The notes below the pieces were generated by a model. That model was not told the origin of the DNA. It saw nothing but the letters and a program-made list of their open reading frames with translations, and did not search any database. A program made the translations under genes and the position numbers. A DNA stretch of 64,000 bases from Pochonia chlamydosporia 170. Lineage: Eukaryota; Ascomycota; Sordariomycetes; Hypocreales; Clavicipitaceae. Location: the NCBI RefSeq assembly GCF_001653235.2, contig NW_019154043.1, forward strand, positions 806,001-870,000, given 5' to 3'. Numbering within the stretch: position 1 is the stretch's first letter; each line of letters begins with the position of its first letter. Positions 1 through 6,255 of this stretch are shown here, one piece after another.

Positions 1-895
1 ATTTATTTCGCTGAGGATTCGTGTTCCACATCTCAGCGTCATATTCATATGGATCATACCCGACAGAGAGAATCAGGTCCGCATGACAGAGCAGTTTGTC
101 GCCAGGCTGATTCCTGAAGAGCCCAATCCGACCGTAGAACAAATGCAGCAGGTCCTCGCTAATAGCGCCGGCAGCCTGAAATGTCTCAACAACAGGCAAG
201 TTGAATGCAGAAACGAGCCGTTGTGTTGCCGCGACTGTCTCGGGGTCTGCAGCTCTCATCCCCAGTAAGACTACTGGCCGACGCGCAGAAGAGAGTAATT
301 CGGAGACGGTAGCAATGGCAGACGGGCTCGCCGGACCATGGACCGGAGCTTCGAACCTCTGAACAGCATGGTCTAGGCCACCAACACTGCTGTTGACCAG
401 ATCTACTGGCAAGGCCAACGCCGTGGCACCCTGGGGGAAGTCGAGGGCATCTCGAAAGACGTTGGCGAGAACTTCATGAACCTGGTCCTCGATAACCACT
501 TTAACAATAGACTTGCAGACACCATCGAGGACTTTAGCGACGTCTAAATTTTGGTGTGTATGTCTGGTTCCTTGAGTTCGCGACACGGTACCAGTAATCG
601 CGACGACTGGATCGCCCTCAGACGTTGCTGTAGCCAGACCAGTGACGAGATTGGTGGTTCCAGGACCTGATGTAACTAGGCAAATTCCCGGACGACCAGT
701 TAGGCGCCCTACAGCGGCGGCCATGAATGCTGCATTCTGCTCATGTCGGCAAACTATGAGTTTGATGGCTGGATGGTCTCGAAGGGCATTGAAAATGCCG
801 TCTATCTTCGCTCCCGGGACGCCAAATACATGAGTGACGCCTGCCTTGGCTAGAGCTTGCACGATGAGATTCGCGATTGGGAGATTTCCCGTCAT
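1..895 (-). CDS. Catabolic (AlsS-type) acetolactate synthase, C-terminus cut by window edge
   Basis: Thiamine-diphosphate enzyme that condenses two pyruvates to 2-acetolactate. The frame is open without introns from ATG 895 to the window edge, giving 298 residues that cover the N-terminal PYR domain and much of the central domain. The start is the first ATG of the conserved region. The RHEQNAAFMA motif carries the cofactor-activating Glu (E52); VFGVPGAKID, VTSGPGTTN and, near the edge, GRIGLFRNQPGD followed by a GYDPYEYD motif are those of bacterial catabolic enzymes (Bacillus AlsS, Klebsiella BudB), not of fungal Ilv2. No mitochondrial presequence is visible, so a cytosolic enzyme is inferred. 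It lies downstream of, and on the same strand as, the acetolactate decarboxylase gene, so its product would feed acetoin formation. Other TPP decarboxylases are less likely because the AlsS-specific central motif is present. Confidence 0.9.
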   Translation of the reverse strand, partial: MTGNLPIANLIVQALAKAGVTHVFGVPGAKIDGIFNALRDHPAIKLIVCRHEQNAAFMAAAVGRLTGRPGICLVTSGPGTTNLVTGLATATSEGDPVVAITGTVSRTQGTRHTHQNLDVAKVLDGVCKSIVKVVIEDQVHEVLANVFRDALDFPQGATALALPVDLVNSSVGGLDHAVQRFEAPVHGPASPSAIATVSELLSSARRPVVLLGMRAADPETVAATQRLVSAFNLPVVETFQAAGAISEDLLHLFYGRIGLFRNQPGDKLLCHADLILSVGYDPYEYDAEMWNTNPQRNK

Positions 896-1524
896 GGTGT
901 TGCGTGATGGAGACTCGGTGATGTCTTACATCCAAGCAGTTGAGTGCGGTATGAGATGTGGGAACTCCGATTGATGTGGTTATATATGTGAACGTCTATT
1001 GATCGGTCACGCCACTTTTGCAGTCCCTTGGCTAGTATTCACTTCCACATAAACTGCCGCAGGCGGCGAATCTCTAAACTTTGATGGGTGTGCCTTCGGG
1101 ACTCGCGGATGCGGCTTGGTGGACACTAATTGTCCCCATCTGAGACTAGATAAGCGATCGAGAGGAGGGCTGAATTAAGCCCAAACCTTTGAAAGGGTTG
1201 CAGGGCGTCGGCTTGGCGCAAATCATCTTCAGCGGGCTTCTCATCATACTGTCTCTCTGGTTAGTTGGTTCACGTCCGCTGTGAGTTGCCTCTGATTGTA
1301 CTGTGACTGCTCACTGGAATTCAGTTACATCAGGATAAGTGGCTCAAAACTGGAGCCAAGCTGAAGCCGTGCTGGAGTGTTGGAGAATTCACTTTGTTTC
1401 CATTCATTGTTGTACAGTTGTGCATTGGGTAAGATTATTTGTGTTAATTGAAGATGAATTATCGTTTAAATTTGTTGATGAAACTGGCGCAAGACTGTCG
1501 TCTCACCAGAGTCATGTAATCTAT
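896..1524. other. Intergenic between acetolactate decarboxylase and synthase
   Basis: About 630 nt between two same-strand genes. It should hold the decarboxylase 3' end and the synthase promoter. I see no further gene; the plus-strand frame at 1339-1644 runs antisense into the decarboxylase and has no recognisable content. Confidence 0.6.
980..986 (-). promoter_or_regulatory. TATA-like box upstream of acetolactate synthase
   Basis: TATATAA on the minus strand about 85 nt before the ATG at 895. It suggests the synthase has its own promoter rather than being co-transcribed with the decarboxylase. Confidence 0.35.
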
Positions 1525-2238
1525 CTATCCTTCTACCTTTTTCAGCGCATCGCCACCCGGCTCAAGTTTCGCCTTATCAAAATCATTCGACTCCGGAAGC
1601 TCCAAATGAAACGAATTGAGAACATCAGCCGTCAACTGAAGTGAACCGCTCGCTTCCAGCGCCAGAACATGACCTCCAAAAGTATTATCAGATGATAAAA
1701 AGTGCGCATGTAAACCGCCAACTGATATTCCGTCCATAAAAGAAGGACTCCAGAAACCCACGATTGTCCCCCGCACATGTTCGTACTTGTTGACTTTCTG
1801 ATGCTCTCCAAGCTCTGAGAGCGACTGTCCCGGATATTCCTGCCCACGCACGACTCTTGCAGTCATGGTATCAAATTGGCCCTCTAGCTTGAAGATTATG
1901 AAACGATTCGTCGCGCCCGGGTAGATTCTGAGTAAATTGTCTCGGATTGCGTCCTTGTGAGGTAGGCCATCTATTGACAGCGATCGGTCTTTTGAAAAGT
2001 GTGCGACCATGGCAAAAGGAAGTTGTTGTTGATCGTCCAAAACCTTGACATCACCAGAAGATTGCAAATGGTATGGAACACCGTTCACTACGACGACTTC
2101 CCCGTCCACATTGGCCACCGTGCCGAGTCCGTAGTTCCCATGCGAGAGGAGATTGGACACCCGGATACCGGTAGAGGCTATGCCGGCCATCAGCGCAGAC
2201 GCTGTGGAATACTGAAAGAGCTGGGATGCGGGTGCCAT
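1525..2238 (-). CDS. Alpha-acetolactate decarboxylase (AlsD/BudA family)
   Basis: Decarboxylates 2-acetolactate to acetoin. The 237-residue intronless frame covers the whole bacterial family length: the N-terminal LFQYSTASALMAG motif, HGNYGLGT around residues 33-40, DGE with Glu47, and the metal site GLHAHF...FGGHVL. His177 and His179 followed by His190 keep the His-x-His-x10-His spacing of the zinc ligands in the Brevibacillus enzyme. The C-terminal LPESNDF segment and the terminal VEG also fit the family. The ATG at 2238 immediately precedes the conserved start, and no signal or transit peptide is seen. Its same-strand neighbour is an AlsS-type synthase, so the two enzymes make a two-step pyruvate-to-acetoin route. 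Family assignment is secure; bacterial ancestry is an inference from family distribution and lack of introns. Confidence 0.93.
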   Translation of the reverse strand: MAPASQLFQYSTASALMAGIASTGIRVSNLLSHGNYGLGTVANVDGEVVVVNGVPYHLQSSGDVKVLDDQQQLPFAMVAHFSKDRSLSIDGLPHKDAIRDNLLRIYPGATNRFIIFKLEGQFDTMTARVVRGQEYPGQSLSELGEHQKVNKYEHVRGTIVGFWSPSFMDGISVGGLHAHFLSSDNTFGGHVLALEASGSLQLTADVLNSFHLELPESNDFDKAKLEPGGDALKKVEG

Positions 2239-5865: not shown

Positions 5866-6255
5866 ATGCTCACCATCGCCAAAGCCCTCGCGGCCGTCAT
5901 GGCACTCACTCTTACTGCCAATGCTGCGCCAACCCCTGAGACAGAGAACATGAACGAGCTTGATGCTCGTGACAATGGTGACTTCACCTGGTATCACACC
6001 GGTCTCGGTGCCTGCGGGTGGACAAACCATAACGGCGAGTTGGTTGCCGCTGTCGGTCATGCTCTATATGATCGTACTCGCCCGTGTGGTCGCAGGATCC
6101 GCGCCCACCACAGAGGCAAGTCTATTGTTGTCACGGTTGTCGACCGTTGTGAAGGCTGCAAAGACAACGATGTGGACTTTACGCCTGAGGGTTTCAAGAG
6201 GCTTGTTGGTAGCCTTGGACCTGGTCGTGTCCGAGGCACTTGGGAATTTATCTGA
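5866..6255 (+). CDS. Small secreted double-psi beta-barrel (RlpA/barwin-like) protein
   Basis: 129 residues. Residues 1-21 form a signal peptide ending at ANA-A, followed by a short acidic propeptide-like stretch containing a DAR site. From about residue 37 the chain matches the compact barrel family seen in fungal RlpA-like, expansin-like and papain-inhibitor-like proteins: GDFTWYHTGLGACGW, a CGRRI segment, the core VVTVVDRCEGC, and DVDFTPEGFKRL. The four mature Cys would form two disulfides. Such proteins are extracellular and bind carbohydrate or act as protease inhibitors; most have no proven catalysis, and no cellulase or expansin C-terminal module is present. Host-interaction or wall-remodelling roles are possible. 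Confidence 0.88.
   Translation: MLTIAKALAAVMALTLTANAAPTPETENMNELDARDNGDFTWYHTGLGACGWTNHNGELVAAVGHALYDRTRPCGRRIRAHHRGKSIVVTVVDRCEGCKDNDVDFTPEGFKRLVGSLGPGRVRGTWEFI

Follow-up and report, generated by a model that had tools for sequence, protein, structure and literature searches.

A linked catabolic-type acetolactate synthase and acetolactate decarboxylase gene pair in Pochonia chlamydosporia, a proposed fungal acetoin module

The left end of a 64,000-bp stretch of the Pochonia chlamydosporia 170 genome (G000:C8:806001-870000, referred to here as the window) carries a gene for an acetolactate decarboxylase (ALDC) beside one for an acetolactate synthase. Two questions are raised by this locus: whether the genes are a bacterial element carried by a fungus, as the initial annotation suggested, and whether they encode a route from pyruvate to acetoin that is separate from valine and isoleucine synthesis.

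The decarboxylase and synthase genes and their surroundings

The ALDC gene (positions 1525..2238, minus strand) is complete and consists of an uninterrupted frame for 237 amino acids, which begins at the first start codon after a stop codon and contains no internal stops. The protein matched positions 1-218 of the 219-position Pfam model PF03306 (E = 7e-73; 244.9 bits versus a cut-off of 25), with the domain match beginning at residue 7, and narrowly exceeded the curated cut-off of TIGR01252 (185.9 versus 180.65 bits). The top match among known structures was PDB entry 4bt2 (E = 4.7e-35), which we take to be the Brevibacillus enzyme with the active-site residues and metal ligands T58, E65, R145, H194, H196, H207, and E253. 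Counted by hand along the alignment, residues T40, E47, R128, H177, H179, and H190 of the P. chlamydosporia protein correspond to chain positions 58, 65, 145, 194, 196, and 207 of 4bt2, the three histidines forming an H-x-H-x10-H motif, and by position E236 presumably corresponds to E253, which lies beyond the printed alignment. In the decarboxylase alignment used for the trees described below, H177, H179, H190, and R128 were kept in all 136 fungal-clade rows (the window's included) and all 26 bacterial-type rows. E47 was present in 135 of the 136 fungal-clade rows (one gap) and in all 26 bacterial-type rows, T40 in 135 (one gap) and 25, respectively, and the C-terminal E236 in all 136 and in 19, the other seven bacterial-type rows having gaps. 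A single copy of PF03306 was found in the whole genome. The protein is a member of the acetolactate decarboxylase family with intact metal-binding and catalytic residues and is predicted to convert acetolactate to acetoin.

The synthase gene enters the window with its N-terminal 298 codons (positions 1..895, minus strand), and the remainder extends to the left as far as genome position C8:805210. Completed from the genome sequence, the gene, of which the initial annotation had seen only this part, comprises 561 codons (C8:805210-806895; L002:7210-8895(-)) and is not truncated. Residues 8-552 of its product matched positions 2-538 of the 539-position AlsS model TIGR02418, and the cut-offs of two AlsS models were exceeded (648 versus 551.1 bits for TIGR02418 and 712 versus 510 for NF006378), whereas the score with the biosynthetic model TIGR00118 fell far short (297.9 versus 538.35 bits). 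The top PDB matches (E = 1.5e-149) were 9zgl, named as an ancestral catabolic synthase, and 4rjj, presumably the Bacillus subtilis enzyme. The protein is a full-length three-domain thiamine diphosphate (ThDP) enzyme containing both RHEQN and GDGGF; GYDPYEYD is also present, and the FAD-site motif RFDDR, a marker of FAD-containing biosynthetic enzymes, is missing. Across the 120 listed AlsS rows, again including the window's, RHEQN occurred in 120, GDGGF in 119, GYDPxEYD in 90, and RFDDR in none.

When the genome was searched with the synthase, the gene itself and six other places were found, the next two of which (C4:5256097 and C5:350845) are each 29% identical to it. The C5 paralogue contains RFDDR and had the acetolactate synthases 7egv and 9yjz as its best structures, and the C4 paralogue, with RFDER, resembles the one on C5. 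Both look like ILV2-type synthases, the former judged by solved structures and the latter by its likeness to the former. No second AlsS-type synthase gene was found in the genome. These results confirm the catabolic type that had been assigned initially, and the enzyme is predicted to form acetolactate from pyruvate without FAD or a regulatory subunit. With ILV2-type paralogues that are only 29% identical and lie on other contigs, the locus would fit the cytosolic acetoin route, apart from valine and isoleucine synthesis, that had been suggested for it.

As annotated initially, an intact ALDC gene lies beside an AlsS-type synthase gene on the same strand. The stop codon of the ALDC gene and the start codon of the synthase gene are separated by a 629-bp spacer (positions 896..1524), which presumably holds the synthase promoter. 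Unlike those of a tightly packed operon, the frames of these adjacent genes neither overlap nor abut. The synthase frame is open over 571 codons, 10 more than the ORF, which leaves no room for a mitochondrial presequence within the frame; the ALDC frame extends 22 codons beyond the ORF without an earlier start codon. The proposed absence of presequences thus applies to the genes' own open frames, and an upstream exon could still supply one.

The GC contents of the two genes (0.502 and 0.513) are within the range of seven ORFs of the window (0.495 to 0.564), as are the third-position GC contents (0.511 and 0.506; range, 0.475 to 0.576), and the pair sits inside a 1.25-Mb contig of the 44.2-Mb genome. 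The window contains 28 ATG-started ORFs of at least 150 amino acids. Among the 12 neighbouring ORFs tested with Pfam, a minority of these, no further acetoin gene was recognised. Ten of the 12 yielded a metallo-beta-lactamase fold, a deaminase, a ZGRF1-like domain, a PNP_UDP phosphorylase, and a kinase-like match below the cut-off, with no match for the remaining five; of the other two, one had no match and one a barrel domain below the cut-off.

Relation to bacterial and fungal homologues

The bacterial alsSD/budAB operons comprise the same two enzyme families, and on Ancylobacter, Pantoea, and Vibrio plasmids the decarboxylase precedes the synthase as it does here. The resemblance to budAB/alsDS noted in the initial annotation is therefore real with respect to families and order, but it does not extend to an operon-like layout: the P. 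chlamydosporia genes are separate, with the 629-bp spacer between them and no adjacent acetoin reductase recognised, and their products are only 32-37% (ALDC) and 42-47% (AlsS) identical to the proteins from these three genera. In Pantoea ananatis (L048) the order is budA-alsS-acetoin reductase, and the ORFs of an unannotated Paraburkholderia stretch are likewise arranged as decarboxylase, then synthase. The reverse order is found in Levilactobacillus and Pediococcus (annotated) and in Niallia (ORFs of an unannotated stretch). A Deinococcus plasmid stretch had no annotated synthase beside the decarboxylase.

A search with the decarboxylase returned 28 proteins, and those with an organism name came from Xylogone, two species of Rasamsonia, and a Fusarium; three of the 28 are labelled sideroflexin-5. 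A profile search gave 1,050 matches, and the organisms named among the best 120 were fungi. The synthase search gave 7,989 matches, and the names among the best 120 were again fungi save for P0124, a presumed contaminant that bears the label Quercus suber. Another contig, 103,859 bases in length, carries a synthase 99% identical to that of the window. Identity to fungal-clade rows reached 79% over 171 columns for ALDC and 77% for AlsS. The highest bacterial identity for ALDC was about 37%, seen with plasmids (among 40 of 171 records shown) and 296 genomes of the Microbacterium phylum, and that for AlsS was 47%, seen with plasmid synthases. In the latter phylum an ALDC match was present in 26 of the 296 genomes and a synthase match in 1 of 296 (E = 1e-90), each genome contributing few scored candidates (at most four in the rows shown). 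A scan of 84,980 prokaryotic species genomes, limited to two motifs of the ALDC subclade, matched 10 stretches, one of which was confirmed (Microbacterium, 31% identity); a motif scan of this kind does not speak for a general absence of ALDC from bacteria, as the 26 genomes with a match illustrate. The scan of viral contigs gave no confirmed match.

The decarboxylase FastTree comprised 162 rows, made up of 137 distinct database rows (the 28 proteins plus the best 120 of the 1,050 profile matches) and 25 of 35 bacterial ORFs. The other bacterial ORFs were dropped as copies of L020 (L021 and L037), as a near-copy of L055 (L050), or as interrupted, short, or weak (L027, L030, L039, L043, L044, L045, and L046). 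In this tree, 136 rows formed one fungal clade (support, 98) apart from the 25 bacteria and P0028, a database row that groups with them and was counted as bacterial-type. The fungal clade falls into a subclade of 25 rows, the named members of which include the window's ALDC, Xylogone, Rasamsonia, and Malassezia cuniculi, and one of 111 rows with Fusarium, Colletotrichum, Coniochaeta, Aaosphaeria, and others; the rows being the best matches of longer lists, these sizes are not abundances. The named Sordariomycete decarboxylases belong to the larger subclade and that of the window to the smaller one. In an IQ-TREE analysis with a mixture model of 53 of the 162 rows (14 bacterial), the fungal clade and the window's subclade were each supported at 100/99.

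The synthase tree comprised 127 rows, namely the best 120 matches of 7,989 and seven of eight bacterial sequences (L050 was left out), and the 120 rows were split from the seven bacteria at 99. IQ-TREE analysis of 36 of these rows (six bacterial, L053 being left out) supported the fungal clade at 100/100 and the window's subclade at 100/99. Phylogenies of both proteins thus place 136 decarboxylase and 120 synthase rows, the window's included, apart from bacteria, and the idea that this fungus carries a bacterial element does not hold, as both proteins lie inside fungal clades (100/99 with 14 bacteria and 100/100 with six). Calling this fungal pair bacterial is misleading; the biochemical reading given with it was sound. 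The trees are arbitrarily rooted, several bacterial rows are on long branches, and the donor lineage is beyond their resolution; for these reasons the derivation of each fungal clade from one bacterial source is only an inference. An old bacterial origin common to many fungi is plausible.

The window's ALDC joined that of Xylogone (Leotiomycetes) first, then Rasamsonia (Eurotiomycetes, Eurotiales), and then Malassezia (Basidiomycota). For both genes, the IQ-TREE analyses joined the window's sequence to Xylogone first and to Eurotiales sequences next. This order fits vertical descent, because the NCBI taxonomy unites Leotiomycetes and Sordariomycetes under the name sordariomyceta.

Linkage in other fungi and alternative explanations

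The pairing in other genomes was approached by comparing the contig sizes of 136 decarboxylase and 117 synthase entries, for which the database gives the size of the longest contig and not gene positions. P0124, for which no length is given, and P0030 (103,859 bases, a size that the other list lacks) were left out, together with the window's own entries. Five sizes were common to both lists: 20,658, 70,961, 701,533 (Thozetella), 5,130,532 (Aaosphaeria), and 8,055,043 (Xylogone) bases. When one list was offset by between 1 and 10 bases in each direction as a chance control, three coincidences were obtained in 20 comparisons, versus five in the single unshifted comparison, and in each of the three pairs with a name, ALDC and synthase are assigned to the same organism. 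Each of the five same-size pairs probably represents one shared contig. The two genes would then lie within 21 kb and 71 kb of each other on the two short contigs, and on the 8.06-Mb, 5.13-Mb, and 0.70-Mb scaffolds the result means mere co-location.

Pruned to the window and the five pairs, both IQ-TREE phylogenies gave the grouping ((window, Xylogone), (20,658, 70,961)) apart from Aaosphaeria and Thozetella. Such concordance is expected if both genes were inherited jointly, with only six tips in the comparison. The Xylogone pair (P0005/P0034), the 20,658-base pair (P0018/P0038), and the 70,961-base pair (P0014/P0042) belong to the same two subclades as the window's pair and show the same branching; that each of the three is a pair is read from the shared contig size. 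Based on the five same-size pairs and the six pairs branching alike, the pairing is probably not a one-off. The window's subclades also contain Rasamsonia with a decarboxylase and three Talaromyces species with a synthase, the respective partners being absent among the matches listed.

Pairing had been taken to suggest either transfer as a unit or selection for linkage. A recent joint acquisition of the two genes from bacteria, by this fungus or by its genus, would account for a gene order and strand like those on the Ancylobacter, Pantoea, and Vibrio plasmids, for the uninterrupted frames, and for the single copy of each gene in the genome. It is nevertheless very unlikely, since identity is about 37% (ALDC) and 47% (AlsS) to bacteria versus 79% over 171 columns and 77% within the fungal clades, every sampled bacterium lies outside these clades in the IQ-TREE phylogenies, and GC and third-position GC are within the range of the seven window ORFs. 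With neither gene nested among bacteria in the FastTree or IQ-TREE analyses, a recently acquired bacterial operon was rejected. That part of the proposal is thus contradicted by the trees, whereas recurrence of the pairing is supported by the five same-size contigs, tightly at 20.7 kb and 71 kb and as co-location on the large scaffolds, and by the agreement of the two phylogenies. The bacterial type of the enzymes might also be put down to bacterial contamination of the assembly, but the chance of this is negligible: the genes lie inside the 1.25-Mb contig, their nearest relatives belong to the fungal clades, the 99% identical synthase occurs on the separate 103,859-base contig, and contamination was ruled out by trees, contig context, and composition.

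Movement of both genes together from one fungal lineage to another, into that of the window or out of its relatives, is suggested by the small decarboxylase subclade, in which the window's ALDC stands with Xylogone, Rasamsonia, and the basidiomycete Malassezia cuniculi and away from the named Sordariomycetes. Three host proteins, by contrast, had their highest scores with structures of presumably Sordariomycete enzymes (Magnaporthe, Fusarium, and Trichoderma), ahead of presumed Aspergillus ones: Tps1 (777 versus 701 bits), one exon of isocitrate lyase (567 and 553 versus 535), and ILV2 (1112 versus 1016). The order of window, Xylogone, and Eurotiales seen for both genes fits the classes, and for this reason we consider such a transfer unlikely; the remainder is explained by two old paralogous lineages of which one was lost, and no linked synthase for Malassezia was seen among the matches listed. 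It is accordingly doubtful that an acetoin pair moves jointly from one fungus to another, across phyla as well (a Sordariomycete, a Leotiomycete, and Eurotiales, and for ALDC also Malassezia). The neighbourhood of the genes might, finally, be incidental, with the synthase feeding valine and isoleucine synthesis or the ALDC merely clearing leaked acetolactate, as acetolactate is an intermediate of both the acetoin and the branched-chain amino acid routes. This explanation is quite unlikely given that the genome apparently has two ILV2-type synthases already, that the synthase belongs to the catabolic type and lacks RFDDR, and that shared contigs recur in other fungi.

A putative fungal acetoin route

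The pair very probably forms a two-gene fungal acetoin module. In the proposed route, a cytosolic, ThDP-dependent AlsS-type synthase without the FAD-site motif would convert two pyruvates to 2-acetolactate and CO2, and the neighbouring metal-dependent ALDC would convert acetolactate to acetoin and CO2. Acetoin could then leave the cell or undergo reduction to 2,3-butanediol by a dehydrogenase encoded elsewhere. Such a route would bypass the mitochondrial ILV2 and could drain excess pyruvate. Each of the two fungal clades may stem from one old bacterial acquisition, perhaps of both genes together, and the pair seems to have been kept linked in several fungi. Cytosolic location, activity, product, physiological role, and remote bacterial origin are all inferred from sequence.

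A linked synthase-decarboxylase pair has been described in Penicillium digitatum as an 'acetoin biosynthetic cluster', in which PDIG_14840 (ALS) and PDIG_14850 (ALD), both of which were knocked out, belong to five genes responding to the antifungal protein AfpB (PMC10269557). According to the available text of that study, growth on PDA and fruit infection were unchanged in the single and double knock-out mutants, the MIC of AfpB was increased twofold, and acetoin production was inferred from the mutants (PMC10269557). A proteomics table includes the P. digitatum decarboxylase as well (PMC8775614). Both systems have neighbouring ALS and ALDC genes (with consecutive locus tags in P. digitatum) in a filamentous ascomycete and are interpreted as an acetoin route apart from branched-chain amino acid synthesis. 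They differ in that five genes respond together in P. digitatum, whereas the 12 neighbouring ORFs tested here included no other recognisable acetoin gene. The comparison is drawn from the published description, and the AlsS type of the P. digitatum synthase is not stated in the available text.

A fungal linked ALS-ALDC cluster consists of adjacent genes in a fungal genome, and the window's pair is such a case. Because the P. digitatum pair has been published and knocked out (PMC10269557, available text), this kind of pair is already known, and the P. chlamydosporia pair is a further example of it, both families being present in many fungi. A published account of transfer of the fungal pair was not found in a literature search whose coverage excluded most subscription journals. 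For this genome the pair is an annotation rather than a surprise, with the named relatives of both genes being mostly ascomycetes. Acetoin is both an active volatile and a product of metabolic overflow, and a dedicated cytosolic pair would mean that fungal acetoin need not be a mere by-product of valine synthesis.

ORFs in the vicinity of the acetolactate decarboxylase/synthase pair

To the left of the pair, on the minus strand of contig C8, an ORF with a Pfam match to the PNP_UDP phosphorylase domain is followed by ORFs with a putative NTPase-like stretch and putative ankyrin-like repeats (C8:793534-797171; positions 5534-9171 of L003, a stretch of the genome). Together these ORFs look like a candidate fungal NLR-type gene, in which the domain match is established for the phosphorylase part. 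Within the window, a 129-aa ORF (5866-6255, plus strand) begins with a stretch resembling a secretion signal and has a double-psi beta-barrel match just below the Pfam cut-off (28.0 versus 28.8 bits); it appears expansin- or RlpA-like.

Paralogous enzymes elsewhere in the genome

A second ILV2-like acetohydroxyacid synthase is encoded at C4:5256097-5257722 (plus strand, locus L014), the other copy being located at C5:350845-352470. Paralogues of ILV2-like synthases are sometimes self-resistance copies. The isocitrate lyase family also has a second gene, at C4:5181088-5182720 (minus strand, locus L056 and vicinity) beside that at C1:862300-864160; it probably encodes methylisocitrate lyase.

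Distribution of the decarboxylase across fungal phyla

The subclade containing the window's decarboxylase includes a decarboxylase from Malassezia cuniculi and three more database proteins (P0174, P0021-P0023). This cross-phylum occurrence may reflect transfer between fungi.
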